DNA from: Zygnema cylindricum | Taxonomy: Eukaryota; Streptophyta; Zygnematophyceae; Zygnematales; Zygnemataceae | Length of the DNA: 64,000 bases | NCBI GenBank assembly: GCA_037447655.1 | Contig: JBBHKE010001980.1 | Span: 126,001-190,000, forward strand | Direction: 5' to 3' | In this document: one piece after another, positions 17,164 to 58,739 of the stretch | Position numbering within the stretch: the first letter of the stretch is position 1 | Layout: every line of letters begins with the position of its first letter | Notes under the pieces: model-generated | What the model was told of the DNA's origin: nothing | Databases searched by the model: none | The model's input: only the letters and a program-made list of their open reading frames with translations | Translations under genes and position numbers: made by a program

Positions 17164-17229
17164 TAACGGTGCCGTTCCATCACGGGCCGGGTTAATTGAG
17201 GCCACGATTCCATTAGGCCGTGTCAAGCG

Positions 17230-18923
17230 TGCTTGAGAAACATGAAAGAAGGGCCCACTACCCAGTGTAGTCGGCATCGGCGTACTGCAAATAACACCCA
17301 AATTGCGAATGCTTCCCATAATCATGATTATGCCCACTGTTGCCCGCATCCCTCCCATAGGCATGCATGCAAAATAAGGGAGATTATCGGACAGGTAATA
17401 GAAATGAGTGCATAGGAGGGCGAAAATATATCTCCTCCCCCTTCCTTTCTCCACTTGGGCGGGGAAAGGGATTCGGTTCTTGGTAATTGAGGCGGTGTCC
17501 CAATTTCCCCCCCTCTTCGTCAACCGTGAATAAGACATAAGAATAATTACCCGCCCAATTCGCAGTTCTCGCAGAACCATGTGCTGGAGGGTAGAGTGCG
17601 TGGTTCCCACGAGGAGGGGAGACAGGCCAGATGCCAACACTAACAACACTGATGGCAGATGAAGACGTTGCCCAGGTGAGAGGACAGGCTGCATGTTGAT
17701 GAACAAGAACGAGGATCGGCAAAGTAGGTCAAGTGAAAAGTGGGTTTGTCCTCCAATCCTAGAAGATGGTAAGGGGCCATATTGATTTGATTCACCTTAA
17801 TTTTTTGACCGTCCTTCCCCTCCTGTGTAGAAACTCCCTTGTTGGAAACTTCTACCACTTTCAAAATTACCCGCCTTGCAGAAATATCAAGCATGTCCTC
17901 TTTCTGTTGCATCCGATATACAAAGTCCCCTGGCATAAATCGTCGTTGTCGGGGTACATAATTCCCGCTCCGGCGCTGAAAAAACCACAACTGATCCCTG
18001 TGTTGTGCCAATTGCAAATTCCACATCGCGAGAGGCATCTCACAGTGGAAGAGTTTGGCTCTATGGGCGATCAGTTTTTCGACCGTTCCTTTGTCATCCG
18101 TCTACGGGAGGACAACCGCTTGGGCCGAGGCAGCCCCAGGCAGGATTGGATGTCGTCCGAATAAAATGAAGTAAGGGCTATAGGAGTGGAGAGAAGCTAG
18201 TCTGTAGAATCTGTATCCCATGGCGATCCAAGGCACCCTTCCGTCCCATTCTCCCAAATCTTTTTCCACTGCATATTGACGTAGTGACCGCTTCATTGTC
18301 TGTACGCACCTCTCAGCCAAATTGTTGGCTTGGGGGTGGTCGCGGCTTGTCAATCGATAATCGATGAGGCATTTCTCCAAGTAATTGGTGAATTCTCCTG
18401 CAAATTCGGATCCTTCGTTGTTAGAACCTCTGCTGGCGCCCTAAATTATGACATCACCCTCTGCAAAAAGGCATGTGCAATTCACTTGGATTCCTTATAG
18501 GGCAAACCCACAACCTCTATCCACTTCGAAAAATGTTCAATCATGACCATCACAAAACAATTCCCTCGTCTGCTGGTCAGAGGAGGTCTTAAAAGATCTA
18601 AAGACCACTGATAAAACATCCCTCGGATAGGAAGAGAATGAAGCTCGGTTCCGCCCTTTTTGTCAAAAGCTGCCTTGATTCAATCGCATGAAGAGCAAGA
18701 CTGCACAATTCTGTTGACTGGGGCCCGCAACCCGTGCCACCAATAAGAGCCTTTGACCACGAAAGTGGTCCACTTCTGCCCGGAGTGTCCACATTGTTGA
18801 TGGAGATGGGTAATGAGAGTTTCCCGAGCTCAGGGGGGAGGAACCATTTTCCTCGTACCGTCTGACCATTTCCGGAGGAGAATGCCTGGGTCCCAATCAT
18901 ACGCCGTCATCCGGGTTTGCACC
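17230..18923 (-). pseudogene. Gypsy element G: integrase and C-terminal tail, degraded
   Basis: Reading down from 18923 there is an HHCC zinc-binding region (CGHSGQKW, then SCSSCD near 18690), the integrase core end DHPQANNLAERCVQTMKRSL (about 18345-18290) with the third acidic residue in place, and a C-terminal domain with FMPGDFVYR (about 17940). Several frameshifts and stops separate these parts. The block joins the RNase H segment at 30673 once A1 is removed. The 3' LTR of G should lie near 17.2-17.6 kb but I could not identify it. Confidence 0.75.
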
Positions 18924-19989
18924 TGTAGAAATTGATGGTTTTTCTAGTATTTTCTAGGTGCAAAATGAAATGCAGAAAGAAGCCGAGGTAGTCTGCCTCT
19001 AACTTCTCTCTCCAACTCCCACATTTGTTGCAGTCTCAGAGAAGTTCGAGAGGAAGCTAGAGCCATGGCTACCTAGGCTATCCAGAGGTTTACGAGAAAT
19101 AGTTTAGTTGATTTACGGATCGGTAGCTTCTTACTAAAAGGGAAGATGTCAAATCCAGGATTTGTTCCTGGTACCTGCCGTCTGATAAAGCCGCCGGTAT
19201 CCGGTAGACTTATCCATTAAGTTTAGGACAAGAGCTATATGCTATAAGGTTTGTTAGCTATTTAAATGTTGCCACGTAGGATAATTCATTTATCAGCAAC
19301 TGTTTACGGGTACATAGATTCTGTTATGTAAAAGTACGGATTACGGTACAGATAAGAAACGAGTACCGACAATTTGTTTCTTCAAACGAAACAAATACCG
19401 CGCAAGTATTTATGACGGCTACGATTGAAATCTCCAATCAATCGGACAGCCGAGAAGAATGCCGAAATCGCGGAAGAGAATCTCGGCGGTTTGTGGTCAT
19501 CGCCACATCAAATAACACGTGGCACAACTACATTGGATCACCGCATCTCCGGTAATTACGGTACCGAATCCGGATATGACATGTGTCGACATTTAGGCCA
19601 GGTCGTACAATATTCGTACAGAAAGTACACCGACAACTGTACTTTTGTGTACGGCAGTGTAATATGATTGGTGCCGTACATTAGTAGATAGAGTTTAAGA
19701 GAGTGATAGTATTTAGATAAATTTAGTAGATAAGACCCTCTCTCCCAAAGAGCTTCTGTACAAAAGGTCAACTTTGACCCTACATATCTTACTGCTCAAG
19801 GGAGAAAATTCAAAGATTCTTTTTGCTATCGACTCAGGGGAGTCTTGCCTTCACAAGGGTGAAGGTGGTCAGAGTTTTTGTCAAATAAGGTGGCGTTTGT
19901 TCTTCCTAAAACACAGAGAGGTCAGGGTTATCCAAGAGGCATCTTGCAAACTGTCCATTTTGAGGATCTAGGGAGGTCCCATAGTTACA
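18924..19989 (+). repeat. 5' LTR of A1
   Basis: Starts TGTAGAAATTGATGG and ends AGTTACA. Contains the GTAC cluster (19615-19680) and an antisense tRNA-like patch (about 19148-19232). Homologous to the LTRs at 22019, 26210, 29601, 38730 and 44140. Confidence 0.9.
19148..19232 (-). other. Antisense tRNA-like patch in family-A LTR (type example)
   Basis: On the minus strand: an A-box/D-arm-like ACTTAATGGATAAGTCTACC, then a T-arm-like CCAGGAACAAATCCTGG with a perfect 5-bp stem and 7-base loop. Equivalent patches lie in the other A LTRs (for example 22819-22890 and 39495-39570 on the plus strand) and in B LTRs (24410-24475, 61510-61575 on the minus strand; T-arm CCGGTCCAAATCCGG). Cloverleaf acceptor stems are poor. 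Confidence 0.35.
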
Positions 19990-20002
19990 GGTTATAGGCC
20001 CA
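19990..20002 (+). other. Primer-binding site of A1 (half-tRNA-iMet type)
   Basis: GGTTATAGGCCCA directly follows the LTR. It is complementary, with one mismatch, to the anticodon region of plant initiator tRNA-Met (TGGGCCCATAACC). Confidence 0.75.
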
Positions 20003-22018
20003 CCCTTTAGGGTACCCATCTTTAATTGAACTGAATTCATATAGTGGGAAACTATGATGAAAAGAGCTCTATGCGAGAAAAGTGTTTTGGGGATAGTGAG
20101 TGGACGAGTGGGGCGTTCATTAGGTCTTGGAATCCCTCTTGGGTTTGGAGGAAACAGATTCACCAAAAAAGCAGATCCATCTTCAAGGGAGGAGAAACGA
20201 AAGGGAGGTGGTGGACAAAGGAAAGGAGAAGGAGACGACCACACCAATAACAACTAGTTCGGCATTCATGTCACCTATTCCGAGGAACGAGGAGAATGAT
20301 ATTGATACTTGGGACTTCAACAATATGGCGGCAAAGCACTTCATCCTCCGCCATCTTACTCAAGGGCTTGCATGTCCTCATTTGCAGGTAGAAAGGGCAT
20401 CCGATCTTTGAATAGCTCTCATAAAGATGTTCCGAAGTGGTACGATTCAGCAACAACAGTTGGGTGATCACAAAATTAAGAAGTATGTATACAAAGGGGG
20501 GAAGATGTTGGATTTTTGCAATGAGCTTGCTAAACTTTTCATGGAGCTAGAGAGTGTTGGAAAAGAATTTAGTGAAAAGGAAAAGGTTAAATGTTTACTG
20601 ATAAAGTTACCCGATGAGTTGAAGAACATAGTCAACCGTGTGCCGGACTTGGCGCACTCAAGGTGGATATGGAACACAGTGGTAGGAATGATACTCGTTC
20701 GGGAGAATACGATTTAGATCCGAAAGGGAGGAAAGAGTTGGTAGGCCTTAGCAGCTGGGACCAATAGGAGGAACAAGGATTCTCGGAGACCGGTCAGAAA
20801 TTACGAAGGAAGGGAGCAAAAAAATTACACCGACGAGTTCGGACCAAGGGCTTATAAAGGTTTATGTCATTTTTGTAAAAAACCAGGGCACTATATGGCG
20901 GAGTGCACTCAGCTAACCAAGCTTTCGTTAAAAGATGGGCAGACCGATGGAACCCTGAGAGGAAAGAAAAAGACCCTTGTGACATAGGTACATGAGGTGG
21001 AATCCGAAAACGAGGACGATGAACTCCTATTGGATGAGGAGTAAGAAGCGACAAATGAGGTAGAAATTCCACGAAAGTAGGAATGTGCTTTCGGTGGATT
21101 CAAAGTTGAAGCAGGCTGGATTGTAGATTCAGGTGCCTCCATGCACATGTGTAAGGATAAACACCTTTTAACTAAGATATGAAAGATTCCCACCGTAGAA
21201 ATAGAGTACGGGGATGGGAGGATAGTCACTACTACTCTTAAAGGATCTGTAGATCTGAAAGTGTTAGTAGAAGGAACGACATCCATAGTTACAATCTCCG
21301 ATGTATTGTTTATTCTGGAGCTGAACAAAAACCTCATCTCTACTTTTGTATTAGATGATAAGGGTTTTGATACTAGCACTAGGAAAGGAGTCTTTACTTC
21401 TAGTTTTGAGGAGGAAGTCTGTTTCAGTGCTGAAAAAAGGTAGCCAAGGGATGTTTAGGTTGAATTTAAGCAATGAAAAGAAGAAACTTTATTATGCTGG
21501 TGTTTATAATATAATGATGTGGCATAAGAGGCTCAGGCATGTGAATCTAGATAAGTTAAGATAGATGAAAAAGATAGGAGTGGTGGAAGGGATTCAGTTC
21601 GGTGAGAGTGAGAATCTAAGTGATTGTAGTGGATGTGCTCAAGGTAAAGCACACAGATTACCCTTTCCCAAAACAACCACCGATAGGGAGAAAAAATTAT
21701 CGATTTAGTACACACACATATTTGGAGACCGGCCAAAGTGCCATCACTAAGGGGGAAAAGATTTATGATGCCTATCACTGATGATTGGTCTCAGTATTCC
21801 AGGGTGTATTTTTTGAAAAACAAGTAATAAGCTCAAGATTGTTTTAGACAATATAAAGCATGGAGCGAAAAACTCCATGAAACTCTAATCAAGAGAGTAA
21901 GAGGTGACAATCATGGAGAGTATACTTGTAGCCAGTTTGAGGATTTTCTGGGGGAAGATGGAGTCCAACACCAAAAGACAGTTCCAGAAAACCCGGAACA
22001 GAATGGGGTAGCTGAAAG
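20003..22018 (+). pseudogene. A1 gag, protease and integrase N-terminal part
   Basis: The gag body lies at 20040-20716, the zinc knuckle CHFCKKPGHYMAEC at about 20863, protease DSGAS at about 21127, and the integrase start with HKRLRHVN and CSGCAQGKAH at about 21520-21650. It reaches PENPEQNGVAE at 22013, where A2 interrupts it. Stop codons (for example at 20409, 21042, 21441) and frame changes make it non-functional. It closely parallels A4. Confidence 0.8.
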
Positions 22019-23120
22019 TGACACTCTAAGACCTCCATAAGTCCTCAGAGTGGACAGCTTCCAAGAAGCCTCGAGGATAACCCTGACCCCTTTGTGTTTC
22101 AGCAAGAACAACAGCCACCCTGGCAGACAAAAACTCTAACCAACTTCACCCATGTGAAGGCAAGACTCCCCTACGTCGATAGCAAAAAGAATCTCTGAAT
22201 TTGCCTTGAGTTGATAGCAAAAAGAATCTCTGAATTTGCTCCCCTGAGCTGTAAGTTATGCAGGGTCAAAGTTGACCTTTTGTAAAGAAGCTCTCTGGGA
22301 GAGAGGGTCCTATCTCCTAATTTTTCTAAGTCTTATCTCTCTCACTGACTCTATCTACTGATGTACGGAGCCAATCAGATTATACTTCCGTACACAAAAG
22401 TACAGCTGTCCGTGTACTTTCTATACGAACATTGTACGACCTGGCGTAAATGTCGACCTGTGGTATATCCGGATTCGCTCCCTTAATCCTCGAAGATGCC
22501 GCGATCCAATGTCATTTCGCCACGTAACATTCGATGTGGCGATGACCAAAAACCGCCGAAATCCTCATCCATAATCTCGGTGTTTAATTTTGGCCGTCTG
22601 ATTAAATTCACATTTAATCGTAGTCGTAATAAATACATACATGGTATTCGTTTCGCTAAAGAAATAAATGCGCGGCATTCGTTTCTTATCCGTACTGTAA
22701 TCCGTACTTTTATATTAATGGATCTATGTCTTCTGTAAAAAGTTTCAGTTAAATGAATAATCCTACTTGTTCATATTTAACTAAATATCAAACCCTATAG
22801 TACGTAACACTATGTCTAGACTTAACGGATAAGGCTACCGGCTACCGGCAACTTACCGTCCGGCAACTACCAAGATCAAATCCTGTAGGCATCACATATT
22901 CTTTTAGTAAATAAACCCCTAATGGTAAATAAACTAATATTTATATCCTCTAAACCTTTGGATAGCCTAGTAGCCATGGCTCTAGCTTCCTCTCCAATTT
23001 CTTAGTGACTGCGATAAGTTTGAGAGTTAGAGAGAGAAGTTAGAGGTAGACTGCCTCGGCTTCTTTCTATATTTCTATTTACACCTAGAAAATACTTTAA
23101 AAGGACCATTAATTTCTACA
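22019..23120 (-). repeat. 3' LTR of A2
   Basis: The reverse complement starts TGTAGAAATTAATGG and ends AGAGTGTCA. The polypurine tract AAAATAAGGGGAG (complement) abuts it at 23121. Confidence 0.85.
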
Positions 23121-23642
23121 CTCCCCTTATTTTCTAGTCAATCTTTAATTTTAAACCACACTTTCCCTGCAGAAAATTAGCTTAAGGGAAGGCACAGGTT
23201 TGGTCATCATATCTGCTACCATCTCACTATCTGGTCAGTACTCTAAACTGATTATTTTGTTTTCTACTTTTCTCTCTAACAAAGCTGAGTCTAATGTCCA
23301 TGTGTTTGGCTTTAAAATGATGTTTAGGATTGGCAAAAATAGCGATTGCTGCTTGATTATCACAAAAAAAATTCTGCACACCACTCTTAAGGTGACGAAG
23401 CTCACCAAGCAAAGACTTCACCCACATCAATTCTTTTACAGCATAGCAAGAGGCCATATACTCACCCTCCATGGTGGACTGAGCAATAACTTTTTGTTTT
23501 TTGCTACTCTAACACCAAGCCCCATCACCCACATATAATACATATCCAGAAGTGCATCTCCTCATCGGAGCATCACCATAACTAGCATCACTCCAAGTAG
23601 TGATGTCAGTATTCTCCCCACCCAAATGCAACCATAGATCCC
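23121..23642 (-). pseudogene. A2 RNase H C-terminal fragment
   Basis: Encodes EGEYMASCYAVKELMWVKS and HHFKAKHMDIRLSFVREK, the copia RNase H end. It stops abruptly at 23642, where family-B gag begins; the two are not in the same reading frame. Confidence 0.8.
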
Positions 23643-24240
23643 AGAAGCACATTGTTGTTTTCGTGGAATTTCTGTGTGCTTTTCTCTCTTCTCCATTCTA
23701 CCCATGTGAAGAAGCTCCAAAATATCTTCATCCTCTTTCTCCTCTTCCTTTTCTTCTTTCTCATTCACATACCAACTTCTAATTTCTTCCAAGCAAGGAC
23801 ATTCCTCGATATAATGACCCGGTTCCCTACAACAGAAGCAAACCCATTTTTCCAAAGCTCCCCTTTCTTTTCCTCTTCCTCTCTTTCCACCGAAGTTCTT
23901 ATAAGGTTTATCTTTGTCTTTCTTCCTCTCATCACGCTTCCGCTCGTCACCGCCGTTCTTCTCATCACGTTTCCGCTCGTCACCGTCGTTCTTCTCATCA
24001 CGCTTCCGCCAGTCACCACCAGCTGTAAATGCATTCACCTCGTTACTTCCCCTACGAAGTTCTAAAGTGCTTTCCCTCACAAGAATTATCCCCATGGTAA
24101 TGATCCAAGTCCACGAGGAGCCTACCATTCCCCGCATACGGTAAATGATGTCTTCGTACTCATGTGGGAGTTTCATGATTAGTGTATTAATATTTCTCTC
24201 CTCAGATTCCACGTATCTCGCACTAGCAAGCTCAACATAT
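23643..24240 (-). pseudogene. Family-B gag fragment inside A2
   Basis: Minus-strand ORF with a gag tail, repeated KRDEKNDGDER units and an intact zinc knuckle CFCCREPGHYIEEC. It is close to B1 gag at 62.9-63.6 kb and clearly different from family-A gag. It is truncated at 24240 against a family-B LTR in the opposite orientation. Confidence 0.8.
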
Positions 24241-24241
24241 A

Positions 24242-24952
24242 TGTTAAAATGTGTGTATTTTCTAGGTCTGTATTTGTCTATGTTGAAAAGAAATAATTAA
24301 TATTCACTTCTTAATTTAGACTCTAAAGTGAAGAGAGAGAGGGAGAGTCACCATGGCTGCCGCCATAGTTAGAAACAAACAGGCAGTCAAATTCATAGAT
24401 TATTAAAAGTTGCCCTTAATAGGATTTGAACTTGGGTCTACAGAATACTTGTAGACGTATGCCTAAGCCATTAATGCGTTAACGAAATGATACACGTTTG
24501 TGGATCGGCAATTACTTAAAGTGTCACGAAAGTATCACTTTCTTTTAAACAGACCAAAATTGACGAAACGACATCATAGTCAAACAGCGCTCGCGGATGC
24601 GAATCTAACCCTGTAAAATACATGATCGGATGGACGACGTCGCCCCCGCAAAACCCGAATGAATCTTTGGCGGCTTTTGGTAATAGTGGCTAGCTGTGCC
24701 ACGTGGCGCCACATCATTGGACGCCAGAAAAGATGGGAGGAGGAACGATTGTCTCATGTTGACAAGTGTCAACCAGAAGGCCATGTTGTACAATGGCCGT
24801 ACAAAAAGTACAATCGGCCACTGTACCTTCTTGTACTATACACTCTTTTGATTGGCCAAAGGTAGAGTAGTCGGTAGTTGTGAGTAGGAGTTAAGGGACT
24901 TAGCGTGTTTGAGGCGCCTCTCTCCAGGTGACGTTTTGTATTTATAGGCCAT
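24242..24952 (+). repeat. Partial family-B LTR (plus orientation) inside A2
   Basis: Begins TGTTAAAATGTGTGTATT, like the B1 LTR start at 61303, and follows that LTR to about TTTATAGGCCATC (B1 counterpart near 62030). The last third of the LTR is missing. An antisense tRNA-like patch is at about 24410-24475. Confidence 0.75.
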
Positions 24953-26209
24953 CTTACAAGAGTAGTGGTGACTATCCTCCCATCACCGTACTCTATCTCT
25001 ACGGTGGGAATCTTTCTTATCTTAGTGAACAGGTGCCTATCCTTACACATGTTCATGGAGGCACCTGAATATATAATCCAGCCTGCTTCACCTTTCAATC
25101 CACCGTGAACACATTTTTGCCTTCGTGGAATTTTGACCTCGTTTTTCGCCTCCAACTCCTCATCCAAAAGGAGCTCATTGTCCTCGCCCTCGGATTCCGC
25201 CTCATGTACCTGTGTCACAAGGGCCTTTTTCTTTCCTCTCGGGGTACCACCGGTCTGCCCCTCTTTTAACCGAAACTCGGTTAGCTTAGTGCACTCTGCC
25301 ATATAGTGCCCCAGTTTCTTACAAAAATGACATAAACCTTTGGGAGCCCTTCGTCCGAACTCGTCGGCCTGATTTTTTTGCTCTCTTCCCCCATAGTTTC
25401 CGACCGGTCTCCGGGAATCCTTATTTCTTCAATCGGTCGAAGTTGCCAAGGCTTGGCCACTCTTTCCTCCCCTTCGGATCTCAATCGTATTCTCCCGAAC
25501 GAGAATCATCCCTACCACTGAGTTCTATATCCACCTTAAGTCCAGCAAGTCTTGCACACGGTTGACTATGTTCTCGAACTCGTCGAGTAACTTCATCAGT
25601 AAACAGTTAATCTTTTCTTTTTCACTAAATTTTTTTTGCGCAATCTCTTGCTCTATGAAGAGTGCAGCTAGCTCATTGCAAAAATCCAACATTTTCCCCC
25701 CTTTGTATACATATTCCTTAACTTTCTGATCCGCTAACCGTTGTTGCTGAATCGTACCACTTCGGTACATCTCTATTAGAGCCATCCACAGATCGGATGC
25801 CCTTTCTACCTGCAAATGAGGACATGCAAGTCCTTGAGTAAGATGGTATAGGATGAAGTGCTTTGCGTCCATATGGTTGAAATCCTTGGTTTGAGTATCA
25901 TTCTCCTCGTTCCTCGGAATAGGTGACATGATTGCTGAACCAGTTGCTATTGGTGTGGTCGTCTCCTTCTCCGCTCTTTTGTCCACCACCTCTCTTTCCT
26001 TTCTCTCTTCCTTTGAAGATGGACCTGCTTTCTTTGTGAATGTGCTTCCTTCAAACCTTGGAGGAATTCCAAGACTTGATGGACGCCCCAATCATCCACT
26101 CATTATCCCCCAAAACCCTTTTTCGCATAGAGCTCCTATCATCATACTTTCCCAGTATATGAAGCCAGTTCCATTAAAGATAGGTACCCTAGAGGGTGGG
26201 CCCATAACC
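24953..26209 (-). pseudogene. A2 gag and protease N-terminal part
   Basis: Primer-binding site at 26209-26197 (perfect GGTTATGGGCCCA). Gag at 26091-25525, zinc knuckle region (CHFCKKLGHYMAEC) near 25325-25280, and protease near 25085, where the motif reads YSGAS instead of DSGAS, so the catalytic Asp is lost. Stops break it into three frames. Confidence 0.75.
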
Positions 26210-27276
26210 TACAACTCTGAGACCTCTATAAGTCCTCAGAGTGGACAGCTTCCAAGAAGCCTCTAGGATAACCCTGACCCCTTTGTGTTTCAGCAAGAAC
26301 AACTACCACCTTGGCAGACAAAAACTGTGACCAACTTCACCCCTGTGAAGGCAAGACTCCCCAGAGTAGATAGCAAAAAGAATCTCTGAATTTGCTCTCT
26401 GAGCAGTAATTTATGGAGGGTCAAAGTTGACCTTTTGTACAAAAGCTCTTTGGGAGAGAGGGTTTTATCTCCTAATTTTTGTAAGTCCTATCTCTCTCAT
26501 AGACTCTATCTACTGATGTACGGAGCCAATCAGATTACACTTCCGCACATAAAAGTACAGCTATCGATGTACTTTCTATACGAACATTGTACGACCTGGC
26601 GTGAATGGCGACACGTGGTATATCCGGATTCGCTCCCTTAATCCTCAGAGATGCCGCGATCCAATGGCATTCCGCCTCGTGTCATCCGATGTGGCGATGA
26701 CCAAAAACCGTCAAAATCCACTTCCGCGATCTTGGCGTTTAATTCCGGTTGTCCGATTAAATTCACATTTAATCGTAGCCGTAATAAATACATACATGGT
26801 ATTCGTTTCGCTAAAGAAATAAATGCGCGGCATTCATTTCCTATCCGTACTATAATCCGTACTTTTACATTAATGGATCTATGTCTCCTGTAAAAAGTTT
26901 CAGTTAAATGAATAATCCTACTTGTTCATGTTTAACTAAATATCAAACCCTATAGTACGTAACACTAAGTCTAGACTTAACGGATAAGGCTACCGGCTAC
27001 CAGCAGCTTACCGTCTGGCAGATACCCAAATCAAATCCTGGAGGCATCAAATATTCTTTTAGAAAATAAACCCCTAATGGTAAATAAACTAATATTTATA
27101 TCCCGTAAACCTCGGAATAGCCTAGGTAGCCATGGCTCTAGCTTCCTCTCCAATTTCTCAGTGACTGCGACATGTTTGAGAGTTCGAGAGAGAAGTTAGA
27201 GGTAGACTGCCTCGGCCTCTTTCTATATTTCTATTTACACCTAGAAAATACTTTAAAAGGACCATTAATTTCTACA
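26210..27276 (-). repeat. 5' LTR of A2
   Basis: 1067 bp; the reverse complement starts TGTAGAAATTAATGG and ends CAGAGTTGTA. Confidence 0.85.
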
Positions 27277-29587
27277 GAAAAATTAAATATGACATTAAGT
27301 GATAGTGCTTGAAGTATGTTGTCGGATAAGAAGATAGGAAAAAGGTTTTGGGCAGAAGCAATAAACTATGTTATTTACCTCAAAAATAGAGTTCTTACTT
27401 CAGTAATAAAAGGTCAAACACCTTATAAGAGATGGACCGGCCGGAAACCAGACATATTTCACTTAAAGGTTCTTCGTAGTCAAGTATTCAGTCTAGATAT
27501 AGATCGGTCTCATTAGAAGCTATATCCTAAACGAAAACCAGGATACTTATTAGGATATGATGAGGATGTTAAAAGACACAGAGTTTATTATCGAAAAAGG
27601 GAAGATATAATCTTAGTAAAGCATCTAGTAGTTATGGATGAAGAAAAGTCTGCTAATCCCTTCAAGTATACAAAGTCAGTAAAAATCAGATTTTTGAGTC
27701 AGAAAATTCCGATGACTTTGAGCTTCCTAACTATCCAGGTCTTAGAGAAGATGACATACTTGCACGTACAAATCAGACGAAAAAGTACTCGCCTGCGGAA
27801 ACTCCTGTGACAACTCTACCCTAAGCAGAAGGCGTGGTGGAAATTGACTCGGAATCAAGGGACAGGGAAGAAGCCGAGGTTGTTCGAAAGAACCCACGAT
27901 AACCATCTATTCCGACCACATATTTTGAGGGGGGAAGGAGAAGTAGCAAAATATTGCAAGAAAAACAAGTTAATAACAAGGTAACAAAACTATCTTATCA
28001 AGATGAACCTCAGACTTGTGGAGAGGCGATGACTTGTCCACAAATGAACTAGTGGAAGACAACCATCAATGAGGAGATGGCCTCAATTATGGCAGCCAAT
28101 TCTTGGGAGCTAGTAGATTGTCCACCTAACCGTAAACCAATCGGTTTTAAGTGGGTTTTCAAATTAAAACTGAACTCGGATAACACCATTGAGCGTTACA
28201 AAGCTCGATTAGTGGCAAAAGGATCTACACTCAAAGAAGGAATCAACTACAAGTAAACCTTTGCCGCGGTCATCAAATTTCCCTCCGTCCGCATACTTCT
28301 CAGTCTCGCAACAGCGGAAGACATGGAGGTGCACCAGATGGACATTAGACAGCCTTTTTGCATGGAGAATTGGGAAAGGAGATCTTCATGCGACAACCCA
28401 AAGGATTTGTGGAGGAACGATATGAGAGTAAGGTATGCCAGCTGATTAAATCTCTTTATGGTTTGAAACAAGCACCTCGACAGTGGAATAAGAAGCTTGA
28501 TGAGTTTTTACCGGTCTGGGATATATCTGGATCAGCTCACATCACTCAATCTATGTTTTTAAAGATGAGGAAGGTGTTATATTTTAGCAATTTATGTTGA
28601 TGATTTGTTTGTTTTAAGTAAATCAATGGAAAAAATTAATAAACTAAAAACCGATGTTAAGGGGAGATTTGAAATGAAGGATATGGGGGAAGCAAAATAT
28701 ATTTTGGGAATTCAAGTAGAAAGAGACCGAAAAACAAAGATTATCAGATTGACTCAAAAGGAAGCAATAGGGAACATGCTTGAAAAGTTTCAGATAGATA
28801 AAGCTAATAGTTGTTCAACTCCAATAGAGTTGAAGAAAGGAAGTGAGTGGGGTGAGGATGAAAGAGTCATAGTCTTAAACAAGGTATGAAGTCTTGAAGA
28901 ACAGAAGTTCATGCAGACTATTCTTTAAAGGCAAGTAGTGGGAAGTCTAATCTATTTTATGAATTGTACCCGGTCGGATTTAGCTGCACCTGTAGGAGTG
29001 TTGAGTAGAAGTCTAAATGCTCCCACTAAGAAGGATTGGGAGGCAGCTAAGAGAGTCCTTAGATATTTGATAGGAACTAGGGATCTATGGTTGCATTTGG
29101 GTGGGGAGAATACTGGCATCACTACTTGGAGTGATGTTAGTTATGGCGATGCTCCAATCAGGAGATGTACTTCTGGATATGTATTATATGTGGGTGATGG
29201 GACTTGCTATTGGAGTAGCAAACAACAAAAGGTTATTGCTCAGTCCACCATGGAGGCTGAGTATATGGCCTCATGTTTTGCTGTAAAAATTAGATGTTGG
29301 TCAAGTCTTAGCTTGGTGAGCTTAGTTACCTTAAGAGTGGCATGCAGACAAGTTTTTGTGATAATCAGGCAGCAATCGCTATTTTTGCCAATCCTAAACA
29401 TCATTTTAAAGCCAAACACATGAACATTAGACTCAGCTTTGTTAGAGAGAAAGTAGAAAACAAAATAACCAGTTTAGAGTACCGACCAGATAGCGAGATG
29501 GTAGCTTATATGATGACCAAATCTGTACCTTCCCCTAAGCTAATTTTATACAGGGAAAAGTGTGCTTTGAAATTAAAGTTTGACTAG
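27277..29587 (+). pseudogene. A1 integrase end, RT and RNase H
   Basis: Continues A1 after the A2 insertion: integrase end (LSDKKIGKRFWAEA, GQTPYKRWTGRKPD at 27316-27516), RT (ERYKARLVAKG near 28190, SLYGLKQAPRQWNKKLDEF near 28451, YVDDLFVLSKS near 28595) and RNase H (28938-29587 with STMEAEYMASC). Several stops and frameshifts. The tail ends with the polypurine tract. Confidence 0.8.
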
Positions 29588-29600
29588 AAAATAAGGGGAG

Positions 29601-30670
29601 TGTAGAAATTGATGGTTCTTTTAGTATTTTATAGGTCCAAAATGAAATTCAGAAACAAGCCGAGGCAGTCTACCTCTAACTTCTCTCTCCAACTCCCACA
29701 CTTGTTGGAATCACTAAGAAGTTGGATAGGAAGCTAGAGCCATGGCTACCTAGGCTATCCAGAGGTTTACGGGAAATAGATTAGTTGATTTACGGATACG
29801 TAGTTTTTTTACTAAAAGGGGAGATGTTAAATCCAAGATTTGATCATGGTACCTGCCGTCCGATAAATAAAGCTACTGGTAGCCGGTAGGCTTATCCATT
29901 AAGTCTACTATTAGAGTTACACGCTAAAGGGTTTGTTAGTTATTTAAATGTTGCCACAGATGATAATTCATTTAACGGCAACTGTAGCGATATATACATT
30001 TTGTTATGTAAAAATACGGATTACAATACGAATAAGAAACAAGTACCGCGCATTTGTTTCTTCAAATGAAACAAATACCGCGCGAGTATTTATGACAGCT
30101 ACGATTAAAATCTGCAATCAATCGGACAGCCGAGAAGAATGTCGAGATCGCGAAAGAGAATCTCGCCGATTTGTGGTCATCGCCACATCGGATAACACGT
30201 GGCACAACTACATTGGATCGAGGCATCTCCGAGGATTACAGGACCGAATCAGGATATGACATGCGTCGACATTTAGGCCATGTCGTACAATATTCGTACA
30301 AAAAGTACACCGACAGCTGTACTTTTGTGTACGGCTGTGTAATATGATTAGTGCCGTACATCAGTAGATAGAGTTTAAGAGAGAGATAGGAGTTAGACAA
30401 ATTTGGTAGATAGGACCCTCTCTCCTAGTGAGTTAGTGTACAAAAGGTTAACTTTGACCCTACATAACTTACTGCTCAAGGGAGAAAATTCACAGATTCT
30501 TTTTGCTATCGACTTCAGAGGAGTCTTGCTTTCACAAGGGTGAAGGTAGTCAGAGTTTTTTTCAGCTAGGGTGGCGTTTATTCTTGCTGAAACACAAAGA
30601 GGCCAAGGTTATCCTAGAGGCTTATTGCAAGCTGTCCATTTAGAGGATCTATAGAGGTCTCACAGTTGCA
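29601..30670 (+). repeat. 3' LTR of A1
   Basis: Starts TGTAGAAATTGATGG after the polypurine tract and ends TCACAGTTGCA. It differs from the 5' LTR at many sites, so A1 is not recent. Confidence 0.85.
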
Positions 30671-30672
30671 CC

Positions 30673-32190
30673 GGGATAATTCAACTCGAGCCGAGTGGGG
30701 AAGAGAAGACCTTTGCTGGATAGATTTTGAGAGAATCGCAGTCGTTCCAGATATCCTTTCGTCCGGCTCGTATGGGCGCCTACCCCTCCACGTCTGCTGC
30801 AAAAGTTGACAATTCTTCCCCAGATTGGGGAAGCCAGATTAAGGCGGAAGATGCTCGAATAAGTCCCAAACTGATTTTCGGGTCCTCATCATACCAAGCC
30901 GTGGTAGAATGCATGGTAGAGAGGTCAAGGTTTCGGCTAAGTCCATCGACATTCCCGTGGATTTCCCTTGCCCTCTGAACAATGCTGAAATCATATTCCT
31001 GCAGCATAAGAACCCATCTGGCGAGTTCGCCGCTTAACTTACTATTTTTCATAATCCATTTCAGGGGTTGGTGGTCAGTAATCAGCGTGAAATGGACCCC
31101 GTACAAATAAGGCGAGAAATGTTGGATTGCCCAAACAGCTGCGAGGAGATCTTCGTGGTATTGGTTATTGCTCCGGCTGGCTTAAGCCATCACATATTCA
31201 GCCCCGCCATCATCGACTTGGGCCAAAACCACTCCCAATCCAAAACTGCTCTATTCAGTGTAACGGAGGAAAGACCTCTGGTGATCAGGCATTTGGAGCA
31301 CGGGGTGTTGTTTCAGAGCATCCTTCAAGAACTAGAAGGCGATTTGTTAATCTTCGGCCCATTGCCATTCTTATTCCTTCCGCAATAATTGATTGAGGGG
31401 TTGGGCATGACTACTAAACTCGGAGATAAACCGTCGATATTAGTTAGCCAAGACTAGGAATGTGAGAAGGGCCGAGATGTCATGCGGATGGGAAAGAGCG
31501 TCAACGGCTGCCACCCTGACCATCTGGGACTCACAGGCCCGAGAGTCACCTCATCTCCGAGGTAAATGATTTTCTGCACCCCAAAAATGCCTTTGTCCGG
31601 GTGACATTTTAAGCGCGATGCTTGGAGTGCCCGAAGAACGATCTGGATACGCTTTAGGTGTTCCTCAAAAGTCTTTGAGAATATGATCACATCATCAATA
31701 TAACACTGGGCACAATCGATTCCTCGAAGCGCTTTGTCCATTGCCCGTTGGAATTTGGCCGGTGCATTCTTCAGCCTGAGAGGCATGTAAATCCATTTAT
31801 ACAGTCAGGATCCTGCCCAAAATGTCGTTCGCTCCCGGTGCTTTGGTTCCATGGCGATCTGGTGGAAATCGTTGTTCATTTTCAGAGTAGAGTAGATAGT
31901 GACACTAGTAAGAGAGTCAAATATCTCTTCCTGAGTTGGCATCTGATACCGGTCAGAGATGGTGGTCGTGTTCAGCATGCGATAATCTCCACACATCCGG
32001 AAATCTACAGTTTTCCAGGACGTGTCCTTCTTGGGAGGGAGAATTGTCGGGGAAGCAAACCCATGAAGTCTTGTACTTTCCTAAACCAATCTGGCTTCCA
32101 CCAAAGTCTAGACTTTAACCGTGATAAATTCCTTCTCTTTGAAGTAGAGAGGATACTGCTTCTGACAAACAGTAACCGCCTCGTCAATTA
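30673..32190 (-). pseudogene. Gypsy element G: reverse transcriptase and RNase H
   Basis: Reading down, RT begins around 31996 (CGDYRMLNTTTISDRYQMP), followed by MPLRLKNAPAKFQRAMD near 31786 and the catalytic YIDDVIIFS near 31695, which is intact. RNase H follows with FTLITDHQPLKWIM (about 31090) and HGNVDGLSRN (about 30960). In-frame stops and frameshifts occur (for example the stop after TTFWAGS). Family assignment to Ty3/gypsy rests on the RT motif order and the DGLSR tail. It continues at 18923 beyond the A1 insertion. Confidence 0.85.
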
Positions 32191-32578
32191 AATCGATTCG
32201 GAAAGGGGTTCCTTTGAAAATGTCGACATCTGTTTCTGACCATGAGAACACATGCTTCTTTTTGGCCAAAAGTTCGGAGAGCCGCGCCTTCTACTGAGGG
32301 TCGATCTACTCCCCCAGGGTCCAATCCATTTTCCCCGGCTCAACAGCAACCCTACCTTTCGGCGATCAAACCCGAAGGTTAATATGGAACTCCAACCCTA
32401 CCGGTGGATATGCCTCTACCCCTCTGACTAGGACACTACTGTTGACAACTTCCGCTACGCTGTTGCCATCTGAGCCACCGCCCCCCCCCATTGGGAAAAC
32501 TTGCGGTGGTGAAATGTGATTTTTTCTTCTCCTTTCACTCCCCCCCTCAAGTTGCAAAGTTGCTTGCATTGCTAACAA

Positions 32579-33660
32579 CTAAGGAGCTTGACGGTAAATA
32601 GCCCTTGACTCTTGGGATTGGAGACTTGAAAAGGCCAGAGCATGCTTTATGAGCCATGTGGTTGCATTCAAATCCATGCTCTGCCCTATTAAGCTACACC
32701 TCTGTGTGTTTGAAATACCTGGTGCGGTTGTAGTTCCCGCATTGAATCCCATGGCTCGCTCTTGTTTTGCGATTGTTAATGTCGTCCAGATATTTGCGAC
32801 ACTATCGTAGATCATTCAAGCTGCTCCTTTCCGGTATGCATGGCTGTGAGGAAAGGAAACTAATGTTGGAATTGCTCTACGTGGACTTCTTGCTTTGTTG
32901 CACTGGAAGAACAGAGGACGGTTTGTTTTTGTCACGGGTGTTGCCATTCGTCGTTTCTCGAGGATTTGCTACACAGAGTTCTGAGAGTCTGGGATCTGCT
33001 CCTCCAAGATTTTATTGAGTATCGGAAGCGGGATTAAATTGGTCTTGTAAGCTCAGACTCGATGTGCCCAGGATCTCATATGTGGTGCTTCAAAGACCAA
33101 TAGAGCCCCTAAATTATGGGTTACCTAATTCCAACTATCAGCCACATGTCTTCGTTTATCATCTCCTGGGTGAACATTTTCCAAAATGTACCCGACTGGT
33201 GTGTTTTGGAGCTGTTGTAACCATGATATTAATTGCACCATTGTAAAAAATGTTTTACTCTTCCGGTCGTGATGCCCTTTTCCTTGTACTGCTAGGAAGT
33301 ATCGCTGACAATGCCATCTTACCACCACTAGATCTACTCTTCCCAAACTGGCCAGGTGAGGTGTCATGATATTATCCACATTCTGTGGGAGACTGCGGTT
33401 AGCAATGGAAATTGTCAACACAGGAAGTTGTTGAGGATATAGGTTGTGAAGTTGTTGGAGGCCATGTTCGCTGACAGCTCGGGCTTCGGGCGATATCTCC
33501 ACGGTTGTATAGGAATTCTACTTGATATCGTGTTTTCAAAACGGCATCAAGATCAAAATTGATTCCAGAAAATAGAGATAAAATCCAAAGGCCTGAATCG
33601 GGAACCGTCAATGACACCACTTGTCTGTTGAATTTTTTGTTTTCAGATATGTTCCCTGAA
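32579..33660 (-). pseudogene. C5-cytosine DNA methyltransferase domain within gypsy element G
   Basis: Minus-strand blocks in canonical DNMT order: motif I WILSLFSGINFDLDAVLK (about 33590-33537), then EISPEARAVSEH, motif IV VDLVVVRWHCQ (about 33330), motif VI YILENVHPGD (about 33180), a target-domain part with SWAHRV and YKTNLIPLP (about 33070), and motifs IX/X ERAMGFNAG and QRCSLIGQSMDLN (about 32770-32660). The AHR...Y.TN piece resembles the AHRARYFWGN part of DNMT3 proteins. It lies in the polyprotein between protease and RT, with an open linker upstream (EYNDKSLQVAKPRRGVDTTF). The copy is dead: one frameshift after motif I, stops after DSWN, HRV and NSV, and motif IV reads HCQ where PCQ is expected. 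Its role would be CpG or other cytosine methylation by the element. Confidence 0.85.
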
Positions 33661-33905
33661 ACATTAGACCGAAGGTTTGAAACTGTTTTCTTTAGTAATT
33701 AATCAGAGAATGTCGTATCCACTCCCCGTCGGGGTTTAGCCACCTGTAATGATTTGTCATTGTATTCTTTTTCAAACCGCTTGGAAATAGAGAATTGCTA
33801 GATCTCCTCAGCTATATCTTTGGAGCTGGCAAAAAGTTCAGTCGGAGAGGAAGTAGCATACATCGGGTAACAGCCAGACACTGGGATATTGGTTTTCCCC
33901 CAGTT

Positions 33906-34560
33906 CTATAAGTCCAAAAGAACCACCACTTTGGTTCCTTCCCAATTTTCGGGGTCCTGAATGGTAAATTGTTCTTTCCACACGCTTAACCCCATATTCA
34001 ACCGGGTCCATGTGGCCATTCCCAACAGAATTTCCAATTGAGTTCCTTCAACCACTAAGAATGGGAGCTCAATTTTCAACCGTTGGCCTGCGTCATCAGA
34101 GAATTCAATTTTTATGGCCTTCATAATCCCATGGACTGGGTCACTACCGCTCCTTACCGTGCTCATGTAAATGTTGCTTGGGAAGATTTCTGGCCGGAGT
34201 TCCTTGGGCATTTTCAGTAAAGCGGATGTGGTGGTGAGGTTGGGGAGCGCTCTGGTGTTGACCACAGCGTCCTGATATCCTCCGTAACTGTTGAGTTTGA
34301 AATTTCCCGATTGGTTCAGTATAAAAGCCACTAATAAGGCTTTGTAGTCCCTATCCACCATAGAGGTTTTCGGATCGGTAGACAAAAAGACGGTTGTCGA
34401 TGGAGTTGCTTTGTCGTCTCTCTCTTTCCCATAGTGTATCTCTTCTCCTAATGCATGAATGAGGATTTCTTCGAACAAGTTGTGTGAGGATGCCAAAATT
34501 TTGACGTGAGTTAGGGCGTAGGGCATGAGGTGCCGGACTAGCATGACAGCCGGCTTGGCG
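33906..34560 (-). pseudogene. Gypsy element G: retropepsin-like protease
   Basis: An ORF of 212 residues. The C-terminal retropepsin signature ILLGMATWTRLNMGLSVW is clear. The active-site region reads VVNTRALPNL where the family has D-T/S-G, so the catalytic Asp and Gly are changed. Upstream is a low-complexity linker (EKESLGKEKQSNKDW). Confidence 0.75.
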
Positions 34561-46165: not shown

Positions 46166-48305
46166 CGTGATGTAGATCCCAAGCAGAGGGCGGCCAATTT
46201 TGCGGCCATTGCGGCCAACTGCTAGCTCTACTTCTAGATGATGGTTTCTGGGGTAAACCTCGTAGGAGCAACCGGTGCTCGTACTGGTTCCACTTGGGTA
46301 AGCAGAACTCTGCATCCCCAAAGGTAAAGAAGTTGAATTGGGAGAGGGTTAACAACAATTTATTCCTCTCCAGCGAACAAGGCTAACTACATCATTTCTT
46401 TGGAGATCCCATTCTTGTGAAAGCATTACCCTTCATTATGCCCCATGAAACCACAAACTTCACATTTTGATCCTTCGGAGGTATATTTGCTGCGGATTTC
46501 ATTTGATATTTGGGTATCATCAAACTTGGGAAGTTTGATTTGCCGCAATTGACATTGGGATATTTTAGATGTTTCGCCCTGGGGAGTTAAACGGTAGGTG
46601 TCCTTCGTCACTGGTGTTTCTCTCCCCCGCTTCTCCTTTGAGTCGTTCCTGTTGTTTCCTGGTCCCCTCAGCATGTTTTTTTTCCCATTCTTTTTGTTTG
46701 ATGGTGAGCTCCGGTTTGAGTTTGCTAGGGCAGCGTCTCCACCCATGTCGTGTTTGTTGGCAATTCAAGCATTTAAACAAAATCATCCTGTCATCAGCTT
46801 CATGGTTGGTTCTGATCCGCTATCAGCCGTCGGTTTGCCTTTAAGCTTCCGCAAAGCTTGAAGTTCCTCTGGTTCATGATCGCTTAAAGAAGTTTCTCCG
46901 GCTAAACCGGCGAAGTTTGCTTTGGCCTTGCCGATGGCAGCCTTTTCACGAGCCTCGCTATGGACAAAATGGTCGTACAGTTGCATGGCTACCAAGGAGA
47001 TTTCCTCAGCCGAGGGATTAATGTCTTGGATTGCTTGCCCTGCAATCCAATTGTCTAGAGCATTTTGCCCTTTAGGTCCGAATGAATTTGGGACAGCTAT
47101 ACAATATTTGGTTGGCATTGCAAGAAGGTCAATAGTCGACAGTTTTGTCTTCTGGAAGAGGCTTAAGAGCTTACTAAAAAAGGTTTGTGGCGTCTCATTT
47201 TTCAAGCATCGGAATTTTGTGAACTCCTTGATGGCAGACTCATTTCTCTCTGTATGTAGGAGCCTCCATATATTCAGAAGAGAAGTGCAAGGGTTGGGAT
47301 TCGCGACCATTCGAGTTCTAGCCCGCGCGGCATGAGTAGCTTGCACCTGGTTGACATAGGCTCTTCCCTGTGCTTGCAGCTTCATCTATAAAAGTGGCAG
47401 TTATAGGGGTTGCCGACGTTGCAGCCAAGCCGGCTTCTGCTTGTAAAACTAACGCATCGAGAGCCAGGTCCGAAATCTTAATGCTACAAGACATCAAGAG
47501 TGGTTGTTGCTCCTTGTAATTTGCCAAAGCACCTCCTAAAATATAGTTGACCATCATTGGGAAAAGAGTGGTCTCGAAGTCATAAGAAATGGCCCCGCCC
47601 CTATATTTATTGATTTCAGACTGGGTGAAAGATTTCCACAGCAATTCAAAATAAAAAAAAAACGATCCTCGAGCTATCTCCCGTGAAGATCCTTATGTTC
47701 CCCAATTCTTTTTCCTCCTCAGCAAGGTTGGTAAACTATGGAGAGGTTGGTTTGGTGGGGCTAAAAAACTGAGCCAATGAAATTGCTCCGGGATCTGCCC
47801 ATTCTATATCTGAACCTCTTTCTCCTCCGCGTGTAACAATTGGGATCCCCCCCCCCGCTGAGGATGGTCTTGCTGTCAAAGGAGGTGTGGGATTTCTTGC
47901 TCCTTTATATTTCGGAGAGTATTGTTCCTCTTAGAATTGTCTCCACCGATAGGATGTGGAGACAAGGTTTGTTCAAAGGCCTTTGTTGAATGGACGGTGG
48001 CAGAGACGGAGACTGCAAAGACACTGTAAGAAAAGGCGTCTGTCTCCTCATTCGCCTCCTAGATGTCTCGAGAGGTGGAGTTCCTAAGCTGGAAGAAGGA
48101 GAACGTCGGTGAGGAGGTGGAGTGATGAGCTGGAAGAAGGGGAACATTTGTGAAGAGGTGAGTAAGCAGGTACGTCCTATTTATAAGGTAAAATAAGCAA
48201 GTCCGGCGACCCACGGATTGTTGTAGCAGGAGAAAGAGATGGCAAAGGAGAGGAGGCGTGGGGTGGTGATGGTTGACGAGTGGGCAGTCCGAGGGAGAAG
48301 TGTTG
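46166..48305 (-). pseudogene. Gypsy element G: gag with zinc knuckle
   Basis: Reading down from 48305: a Pro/Ser-rich region (SPPHASSPLPSLSPATT), then the gag body at about 47644-46783 (for example ALDNWIAGQAIQDINPSAEE), and a zinc knuckle CLNCQQTRHGWRRC near 46770. A second C..C....H group (CEVCGFMGHNEG) is near 46450. Frames shift several times. Joined to 55338 upstream (C removed) and 35341 downstream (D removed). Confidence 0.65.
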
Positions 48306-48309
48306 TCTT

Positions 48310-49309
48310 TGTTGTTTTTGAAACCTTGAGTTCTCTCTATATATTGCTGCTATGCTACCATGCTGCGCTAAGTCTGACATCGCAGCTAGAAACCTTGAGC
48401 ACTCTACTCTTGTTGTTGTGTTGCTATGCTGCTCTGATCTGACATCGCAGCTGCGCTGCTCTAATATCACAGCTGCGTTGACAGATCATAGCAGTCATAG
48501 CAGTCATAGCAGTCATAGCAGCTATAGCAGTCTGCGCAAGAAAGGTGTTCTGAATATGAGTCAGTTTGTGTGAAGATAAATTGACGGGGACATGATTTAG
48601 TGAGTATGTAACTCGAAAGGGAGTACACAGATTCGGTGCACTTCAGGCACACGTGTCGGTCCGTGAGAAAGTCAAGTTTGGTTGTTCTAGATTTAAAGGT
48701 ATAGTTACATTTGAGGACCAAAGTTACACGTGGAGGTTCATCTTCCGTGATGAAAGAATACTTGGAAAGCGGACGAAGTCCGCCGTCATTTTTGAAGAGA
48801 AGTATTGACTGTAGCGTCATTTCAGCGGACGAACTTTAACCGCGTACTATTTCATTTCTAACGGCTGTCTGATTGGTGTAAATAATTATGTGCATTCGAC
48901 GGTGGGATTTTGTTAATGAAGAAGTAGTGTACCAATTGACCACGCTAGTTGTAGTACGGTGTGATCAACTGTAGGCTCATTTGTATATATAGGACTTAGA
49001 TTACTTTAAGAGAAGTAGGATTGTTGTGTAGGAAAAACTGCGAAGCAGTTTTTGGGTGTGTTTGAATTATAAGATCATTGTGATATTTTGGCAGAACTTT
49101 GTGAAATTCTGCATGTGGGTTCTTTGGTGTATATTTTATATTGTGGCAAATTTGCAGACCTAGGGTGTGTCTGGTTTGTTTGGGGCTTCATTGTGAAGTT
49201 GGTTGTTTGTGGGATTTTGTGAGAGTTTCCTCTTTGCACAATTGATTATCATGGCAACTGCCGGTGCTTCTTCATCTTCTTCAGTGGCACCAACTGCCTC
49301 AAATCAACA
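48310..49309 (+). repeat. 5' LTR of C
   Basis: 1000 bp, TGTTGTTTTTGAAACC to CAAATCAACA. Contains CATAGCAGT tandem units at 48486-48530 and a TATATATA box at 48982, about 270 bp upstream of the gag ATG at 49251, which is inside the LTR. Confidence 0.9.
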
Positions 49310-57120: not shown

Positions 57121-57209
57121 TTAATAATGATAGCAAAGCAAGCTCAACCTACCCCGGAAAGCCAAGCTCACACAAAGAGAAGACGAAATATCCCCCGGTG
57201 GCACCAAGA

Positions 57210-58739
57210 ACAGGTACGATCCCCAAATCGAAATCGACTAGACTCTTTTCAGTTTCAATGGAAAAAGTCAAAATCGCCCAAAAGGATGGATAGTGCCAAC
57301 GAACTGCCCGAACTACGACCTCCAAACAAGACAAATCCAAACCAAGATGGCAATATAGTCAAACACTCAAGCAAGACAAAGATTCTTCCAAAAAGAAGGT
57401 TTGTTTAGATTTTTCGGAGGGTTATCACAAGAGACAGTACTGAAACAGCAACTTGTCTCTTTCGGCCCCAAGTGCCTTATACATCAAAGTTTGTCAAATC
57501 GTAGGTCCAAAAGTCAAAGCTGTACTACTAGCCAATGAGCAGTAAGCAAATGACAAATTAATCCGTACTACGCTTGGGGCAAAAAGTTATGCACCGGACT
57601 GCGGCTAGATCCGCGGCCGGAAGTTATTATTTGTTCCACTATTATAAGACAAAAAACTGAAAATGACACAAAAGTGCTATACTTTGACCGAAGGTAATTA
57701 ATGGACCAAAAGCTAGCTGAACGTGAACTAAATTCCTATTGACAGCTAACAGCATAATCTAGACGACAATCTGAAAGTTTACGTGGCAATCCACAATGTA
57801 CCCCCCACGAGGGCTGGAGTAAACTGGTCCTATGTAACGGAATTGCAATATGTGAGACGAAATAACTTGGTCGTCCGGCCTCCGTTAGGCGTGAAATAAA
57901 GTACGTTCCACTTAGTTTAGAAAATAAAAGAATCTTGTCCAGTTGGGTACACTCTTTACTTGGTACTCTGATGACCGTACAAGGTTGAAAGGGCCCGGCA
58001 ATCCTTGGTTATATAAAGGTGTGCCTGTAAAGCACGCGAGCTTGACAGCGGTCCCAATTAACGTACGAAAATGTACGCAAACCTCTAGAGTTTACTGGCA
58101 CTCCGCTCCATTGTGTGGGGCCAGTAAACAACCTTTCAAAATTATGATTCGTGCCACGTACTTGGTATTTACATTTGGAAAATCAAAATAAATTCTTCAA
58201 CGGAAAATCTGAACAATAACATCTGTGACAGCCGAGGTAGTTAATGATTCATACAAAAAGTTTGCCCCAGATTTTAATTTTGAAAATGGAAATCAAAATT
58301 TCAAAACAAAATGGCAAAAATTCGTCGCAAAATTTAAAGGTCGGTGGATGTCAGACAAAGCGTGCGATGATACTTTCGGTTGACATACATCCAACGTGGC
58401 ATGTGCCACGTCGCCCGTACGACGTGTAGGTCTGTGATAGCTTGTTTGAAGTAAATTTTTTTTTTGCCATTTCACGTGTTCTCACTCTTCTCGTCCAGTG
58501 TGAAGCAACTCTCCTAGCGAATGAGAGTTTTTGCACACAAGACGATTTGCGTGATTTCTTCGCGGATCTCAAAAAGTGAAAAATCTAACTGTTGATACTT
58601 ACGCCTATAAAGTTTGGAGCGTGTCGACAACATTTCAATAAGCATGTTTCTTCTAACAAAAAAAAAATTGTATGAATGTGTACAATAACGTACGGCGTCC
58701 AGTAAACAACCCCATTTTTCACCTAATGGAATCTTACCC
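57210..58739. other. Non-coding stretch ending in an M3-family right end
   Basis: No gene seen. The last part (CAGTAAACAACCCCATTTTTC, ACCTAATGGAATCTTACCC ending at 58739) is a right terminus like the M3 copy at 16394-17163. Its left end is not resolved. Confidence 0.45.

Follow-up and report, generated by a model that had tools for sequence, protein, structure and literature searches.

A DNMT3-like methyltransferase between protease and reverse transcriptase in a decayed gypsy-type retrotransposon of Zygnema cylindricum, with a conserved UAG as the likely readthrough site

Background

Why would a genomic parasite carry an enzyme that usually silences such parasites? The question arises from a 64,000-nucleotide stretch of the Zygnema cylindricum genome (GenBank assembly GCA_037447655.1, contig JBBHKE010001980.1, positions 126,001 to 190,000), hereafter the window, in which a first-pass annotation made from the letters alone placed a cytosine DNA methyltransferase (DNMT) inside the Pol region of a Ty3/gypsy retrotransposon. 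Elements of this kind have been described. In Klebsormidium nitens, KnitGypsy-Dnmt3 has a Dnmt3 methyltransferase inside the gypsy Pol ORF, evolves under purifying selection, lacks the rearrangement typical of DRM and has repeats arranged as in DIRS elements, the DIRS order being A-coding-B-A-B (de Mendoza et al. 2018, PMC5890265). A DNMT3 in a gypsy Pol with DIRS-like repeats is, accordingly, already known from that alga. The same study reports that two DNMT domains of SymbioDIRS-Dnmt3 perform de novo CG methylation in yeast and that the domain of KnitGypsy-Dnmt3, the nearest described DNMT to the one considered here, produced no methylation there, a result that its authors call inconclusive because human DNMT3B failed as well; for DIRS elements, they propose that the cDNA is methylated upon reverse transcription (PMC5890265). 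A 2025 paper notes that retrotransposons of streptophytes and dinoflagellates harbour DNMT3 members (PMC12344493), and, according to a review, transposons with DNA methylases are found in green algae and charophytes but are absent from land plants such as tracheophytes (PMC6338049).

Our reading of the window, to which we assign a probability of roughly two in three, is that it contains a decayed copy of a gypsy-type element whose DNMT3-like domain lies between the protease and the reverse transcriptase (RT), is likely produced by readthrough of a UAG codon, and is predicted to methylate the new cDNA of the element itself.

A gypsy-type element in pieces

The assignment to gypsy-type elements made in the first-pass annotation holds: protease, RT, RNase H and rve-type integrase were all matched on the minus strand, and the Pol order RT-RNase H-integrase, which defines Ty3/gypsy elements, is present in the window and in other copies of the element, with the DNMT located between protease and RT as had been proposed (Table 1). 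Comparison with copies elsewhere in the genome assembles a single gypsy copy from several pieces (58053-~56880, 56764-55339, 48324-46172, 35334-30672 and 18922-17221); copia domains are found inside all three gaps between the gypsy pieces, in agreement with the three interruptions that had been noticed at first sight. The gap that separates RNase H from integrase is bounded by the terminal repeats of an insertion (K 0.134), and its flanks, positions 18922 and 30672, are adjacent in the copies C1374 and C1485; hence, the gypsy copy is older than this insertion. No right repeat A could be located in the window. A direct repeat of 153 bases with 86% identity (34995-35147 and 35158-35310, 163 bases apart) is situated shortly upstream of the protease region.

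Table 1. Features of the element, numbered by position in the window
Feature	Position	Strand	Evidence
Left terminal repeat A	56880..58053 (inner end approximate)	minus	71-73% identity to repeat A of C1485, C1156, C1214
Internal region adjoining repeat A, probably leader and gag, without assigned domain	55339..56764	minus	74-75% identity to C1374, C2344
Second internal piece upstream of protease, probably gag	46172..48324	minus	blastn to C1374, C2344, C1485
Aspartic protease, decayed	33963..34364	minus	tblastn with P0004 residues 591-750, E 3.5e-21
Conserved stop, in-frame TAG then CAATTC	33798..33800	minus	TAGCAATTC at the same position in 18 of 19 other copies
DNMT3-like domain	32648..33581	minus	motifs, tblastn and database matches
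Motif I, LSLFSGINFDLDAVLK	33581-33534	minus	window sequence
Motif IV, DLVVVRWHCQ	33334-33305	minus	window sequence
Motif VI, LENVHP	33184-33167	minus	window sequence
Target segment, RSWAHRV and AYKTNLIP	33076-33029	minus	window sequence
Motifs IX/X, ERAMGF	32761-32744	minus	window sequence
Last named motif, QRCSLIGQSMDLN	32704-32666	minus	window sequence
Reverse transcriptase	31544..32197	minus	tblastn E 2.8e-53; PF00078 E 3.1e-12 on one piece
RNase H	30972..31418	minus	tblastn E 2.9e-47; PF17917 E 3.1e-18
Insertion with terminal repeats, holding copia sequence	18924..30670		repeats 18924-19989 and 29601-30670, K 0.134
Integrase and 3' end of internal region including repeat B	17221..18922	minus	80-82% identity to C1485, C1156, C1214
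Integrase match	18859-18258	minus	tblastn E 9e-49
Repeat B	17506-17221	minus	75% identity to B of C1485; found once in window

The methyltransferase domain

The presence of a DNMT domain of the cytosine type on the minus strand is confirmed: motifs I, IV and VI, the target segment and motifs IX/X are all found at the place and on the strand where the first-pass annotation had seen them. The domain is broken by one frameshift and four in-frame stops, with motif I in the frame of the protease and the remaining motifs in a second frame that holds the four stops. The annotation had staked its claim on a PF00145 match within 32579-33660. The read-through domain of the window copy has no such match at E<=1 in Pfam, so that, taken literally, this part failed, whereas three close copies from the same genome do match PF00145. 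Other searches with the window copy returned a weak, below-cut-off match to NCBIfam dcm (3.3e-4) and nothing credible in the PDB, and a first protein search, restricted to sequences of about 190-600 aa, yielded no match among 2996 scored candidates. The identity of the domain is nevertheless settled, because its relatives match it strongly and themselves carry PF00145 together with Pol domains. With the read-through domain as the query, three of 4742 scored database candidates were recovered, P0004 (3e-64), P0005 (1e-47) and P0006 (2e-38); the DNMT domain of P0004, in turn, matches positions 33517-32648 of the window by tblastn (E 1.4e-64). In these three proteins PF00145 (below the cut-off in P0006) stands beside protease and/or RT domains, its partners being protease, RT, or RT with RNase H and integrase, and P0004 unites protease (residues 606-729), DNMT (863-1174) and RT (1318-1448) in a single protein.

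The proposed likeness to DNMT3 is borne out both by a sequence profile of seven copies and by a predicted fold. Against solved structures, the profile ranks DNMT3A (1.5e-15) and DNMT3B (1.5e-12) above HhaI (3e-6) and DRM (1e-4). A structural model of the domain of C1374, predicted from a 22-row alignment (pLDDT 93.7, pTM 0.91), was compared with the PDB using Foldseek, and the best 50 of 1211 matches are all DNMT3A, DNMT3B or DNMT3C, with a TM-score to the target of about 0.8 for chains that consist of the catalytic domain only. Among solved structures, the modelled fold and the profile are thus closest to DNMT3A/B. The motifs run from I to X without permutation and include PCQ or PCN and ENV, as in the DNMT3 family; motif I precedes IV and IX/X, in contrast to the circularly permuted DRM of plants. 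Motif order and fold are accordingly those of DNMT3, although identity to DNMT3A/DNMT3B and to DRM is 21-24% and the stretch between motifs I and IV is longer here. No ADD or PWWP domain was detected in the seven relatives scanned.

Copies in the same genome

The genome that holds the window (352.8 Mb in 2689 contigs) contains many further copies. P0004 as the query gave 83 matches at no fewer than 32 places (32 scored of 4206 candidates); PF00145 detected at least 123 places, all above the cut-off (123 scored of 782 candidates); and the DNMT and the RT of a copy detected at least 125 (125 scored of 1855 first-look candidates) and at least 150 places (150 scored of 3001 candidates), respectively. 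The two DNMT lists combined comprise at least 212 places, 87 of which were contributed by PF00145 alone and may in part represent host genes or the second family described below. A listed DNMT lies just upstream of the RT, in the same orientation and with a median gap of 466 bases, at 76 of the 150 RT places, and an RT is listed downstream of 63 of the 125 DNMT places. For the remaining 74 RT places no DNMT was listed; six of them were read in search of control copies devoid of the domain, and none was found: three have a whole but frame-broken DNMT, and three have only its C-terminal part within the 4.4 kb read.

We read 19 copies, in addition to that of the window, over the DNMT stretch; as these were drawn from the 32 best-scoring places of the P0004 search, the sample leans to well-kept copies. 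All 19, with a protease match upstream in each, have the same protease-DNMT-RT order as the window. The annotation had proposed a search for intact copies of this order and had named copies lacking the DNMT as the observation that would speak against it; neither these 19 nor the six further RT places provided one. The aligned DNMT is free of stops in nine of the 19 copies (including one that is out of frame at its end) and contains a stop in the other ten; PCQ is retained in 16 and the EN of motif VI in 18. In two copies, the frame is open from the conserved TAG discussed below through the integrase, for 1520 and 1525 aa. In the DNMT tree (19 copies and the window) as well as in the RT tree (14 copies and the window), the family occupies one side of a branch, with P0007 adjoining.

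The median dN/dS of the DNMT among the 19 copies is 0.264 (52 of 171 pairs, those with dS 0.03-1), compared with 0.277 for RT (28 of 91 pairs) and 0.512 for the integrase (9 of 28 pairs); the DNMT is under purifying selection, like RT. These values bear on the notion that the DNMT was captured once and has since been carried along as a passive passenger, useless to the element, with the window copy as its fossil. The broken state of the window copy and the stops in 10 of the 19 copies fit that notion, but the similarity of selection on DNMT and RT, the presence of the domain at all six further RT places, the preservation of the catalytic residues and the occurrence of the domain in many distant elements speak against it and make it, in our judgment, very improbable.

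A conserved stop between protease and methyltransferase

The first-pass annotation took the linker upstream of the DNMT to be open into motif I. In this it was mistaken: three in-frame stops, beginning at positions 33908, 33800 and 33701, separate the protease match from motif I in the window copy. Only the TAG at 33800 is shared with the family. The nine bases TAGCAATTC, i.e. this TAG followed by CAATTC, occur at the same place in 18 of the 19 copies, the remaining one having TAGTAATTC; a local frameshift removes the TAG from the reading frame in one of these 18, so that 17 of the 19 keep the frame across the stop. The TAG CAATTC is in frame with DNMT-RT-RNase H-integrase. In the 15 rows that were aligned, TAGCAATTC is invariant, and these rows include C1735, which shares 57% DNMT identity with C1374. 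The conservation extends beyond the signal, because the 17 bases behind it, ATTTCCAAGCGGTGGGA, are nearly as conserved in all copies but C1735; constraints on the protein or the RNA may therefore add to the conservation around the stop.

A UAG in such a position has known counterparts. Murine leukaemia virus is an established case of UAG readthrough from gag into pol (PMC5009743), and its upstream and downstream parts are likewise in one frame that the UAG splits; plant RNA viruses use the type I readthrough signal UAG-CARYYA (PMC5382211). The sequence UAG CAAUUC is a near match to the latter, with five of six positions fitting and the last being C, not A, in 18 of the 19 copies. Unlike the viral systems, the first domain behind the stop is a DNMT here, and readthrough is predicted from sequence. 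Given that the TAG is shared by the window and 18 of the 19 copies, the DNMT-Pol protein is probably made by readthrough: the UAG CAAUUC after the protease would be leaky, the DNMT would be the first domain of the readthrough part, and the enzyme would be produced in the same dose as RT and integrase and would enter the particles together with them.

Should the UAG instead be a true end, the protein would stop after the protease, and DNMT-RT-RNase H-integrase would be translated separately, from an internal start or from another RNA. The predicted protein P0007, which begins about 35 residues before its DNMT, agrees with such an arrangement, although its source contig is 4677 bases long and may be cut. 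However, 17 of the 19 copies stay in frame across the stop, and the CAA TTC after the TAG is invariant at synonymous sites; a genuine end of translation thus appears rather unlikely, and readthrough remains the preferred reading. A stop is not universal among such elements, as protease and DNMT share one frame without a stop both in P0004 and in the second family (C1344). The 9-mer TAGCAATTC was also seen in another context, GTCTGTAGCAATTCAGTTCAG, at the places L017, L018, L020, L021, L022, L026, L027 and L030, some of them inside repeat A.

Terminal repeats

Ten copies were checked for the repeats at their ends. Six have a direct pair of repeat A, about 1.18 kb in length, one has a piece of 576 bases, and three have no pair that long and alike. 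Identity between the two A ends is 97.8, 97.1, 97.0, 94.5, 91.8 and 90.5%; the values of 97.0-97.8% in three of the ten copies suggest fairly recent movement. In all six copies with an A pair, a shorter repeat B (201-287 bases, 93-99.5% identical) is found on both sides of the right A and was not found beside the left A, from which the order of the ends follows as A-coding-B-A-B; the left A starts with TGTC and the second B ends with GACA in each of the six. The ends are therefore not a plain pair of direct LTRs. Target site duplications could not be established: exact 4-base matches are present in two of the six copies, and one of these is a run of A.

Relatives, second family and origin of the domain

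Among 85 related proteins, the DNMT precedes RT in 17, follows a protease in 18 pieces that lack RT, comes after RT in 40 and is accompanied by integrase without RT in nine; one is unclassified. In the group with the DNMT after RT (P0006 and, in part, P0029 to P0084), the domain lies past RT and RNase H and before the integrase where that is present, and 31 of the 40 proteins contain a PHD finger. The organism names given by the source, for which contamination is possible, include Marchantia polymorpha (P0023 and P0028, hypothetical proteins with protease and DNMT, P0023 also with a gag match), Closterium (P0059, P0061) and Haematococcus lacustris (P0087, E 8e-5); K. nitens does not appear among the protein matches. 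The RuBisCO large subunit, searched for as a host marker, gave no match.

A second DNMT-bearing gypsy family was detected in the same genome as a single copy (L038, G000:C1344:89000-93500), in which protease, DNMT, RT, RNase H and the start of the integrase follow each other in a single frame that stays open for 1500 aa or more and lacks the stop. Its motif IV reads GWECQ, compared with GWPCQ, and among the matches listed its nearest relative is P0017 (75% identity in RT, 49% in DNMT), with 40-42% in DNMT and 51-58% in RT to the family of the window.

The two domain orders correspond to one split on the DNMT tree and to two changes on the RT tree; both trees are quick ones with SH-aLRT support only, unrooted with respect to eukaryotic DNMT3. 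This pattern, together with phage DNMTs that are 24-27% identical to the domain over 99% of its length (E 8e-11 to 5e-12, best 5 of 194 records), could be taken to mean that the domain came from a prokaryotic or viral DNMT and not from a eukaryotic DNMT3 gene, perhaps through separate captures for the two architectures. Viral collections yielded one viral contig locus with 29% identity. We regard a prokaryotic or viral source as unlikely, since DNMT3A/B score above HhaI and DRM by sequence and lead by fold. Judging from these comparisons, the domain is likely to derive from a eukaryotic DNMT3 gene; this is not proved, because phage DNMTs, too, align over the whole domain.

The probable target of the enzyme

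Under the preferred reading, the DNMT would act on the cDNA no later than at integration, in line with the proposal made for DIRS elements in PMC5890265, and the methylated new copy would pass as the host's own DNA. The window copy itself has a substitution bias: at sites where seven other copies agree, it differs by C>T and G>A at 78 of 758 sites, compared with A>G and T>C at 35 of 894, the changes by context amounting to 6 of 40 in CG, 6 of 40 in CHG and 19 of 213 in CHH. The same tendency is seen in six of the seven other copies. CpG is weakly depleted, with observed/expected ratios of 0.62-0.71 for eight copies and 0.74 for the whole window, which counts against the preferred reading. The bias in the window copy fits an old insertion that was methylated, whichever enzyme was responsible.

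The enzyme might instead serve other ends than the methylation of its own cDNA, by targeting host chromatin, rival elements or RNA, or by slowing the element for the benefit of the host; RNA and host benefit are among the possibilities listed by the authors of PMC5890265. The excess of C-to-T type changes, as it would follow from methylation by some enzyme, fits these options as well as methylation of the element's own cDNA, and C2086 has almost no such excess (93 of 919 vs 84 of 1061). We consider targets of this kind improbable and retain the element's own cDNA as the predicted substrate.

Implications

The family in the window shares with KnitGypsy-Dnmt3 the Dnmt3 within the gypsy Pol ORF, purifying selection, the non-DRM order of motifs and the DIRS-like A-coding-B-A-B ends, here in six of six copies with an A pair. 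The text of PMC5890265 makes no mention of a stop separating protease and DNMT, which is conserved here; K. nitens, according to that source, has fewer copies than Symbiodinium, whereas the present family occupies at least 125 places. With SymbioDIRS-Dnmt3 and SymbioLINE-Dnmt the family has in common a DNMT in the coding region and a high copy number and, with the former, for which CG methylation has been shown, also the A-coding-B-A-B repeats; however, SymbioDIRS-Dnmt3 has a tyrosine recombinase and SymbioLINE-Dnmt no integrase, in contrast to the rve-type integrase here (PMC5890265). In a literature search that covered few subscription journals, we found neither a conserved UAG before such a DNMT, nor the two domain orders, nor a second such family in the same genome, nor elements of this kind in Marchantia or Closterium.

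It is tempting, if doubtful, to extend these observations to a gypsy superfamily of the green lineage with DIRS-like ends, in which methylation would be a fixed step of the life cycle: a leaky UAG would dose DNMT3 with RT and integrase in each particle, every cDNA would be premethylated, and a genome would hold such enzymes by the hundred, in two or more families, with relatives in which the DNMT, accompanied by a PHD finger, sits between RNase H and integrase. Provided that they do not stem from contamination, the Marchantia polymorpha matches bear, for liverworts, on the statement on land plants in PMC6338049. For the family in Z. cylindricum, the analysis describes a large and partly young set of elements in which the catalytic residues of a methyltransferase are conserved and in which UAG CAAUUC is a candidate translational switch that would tie the dose of the enzyme to that of Pol.
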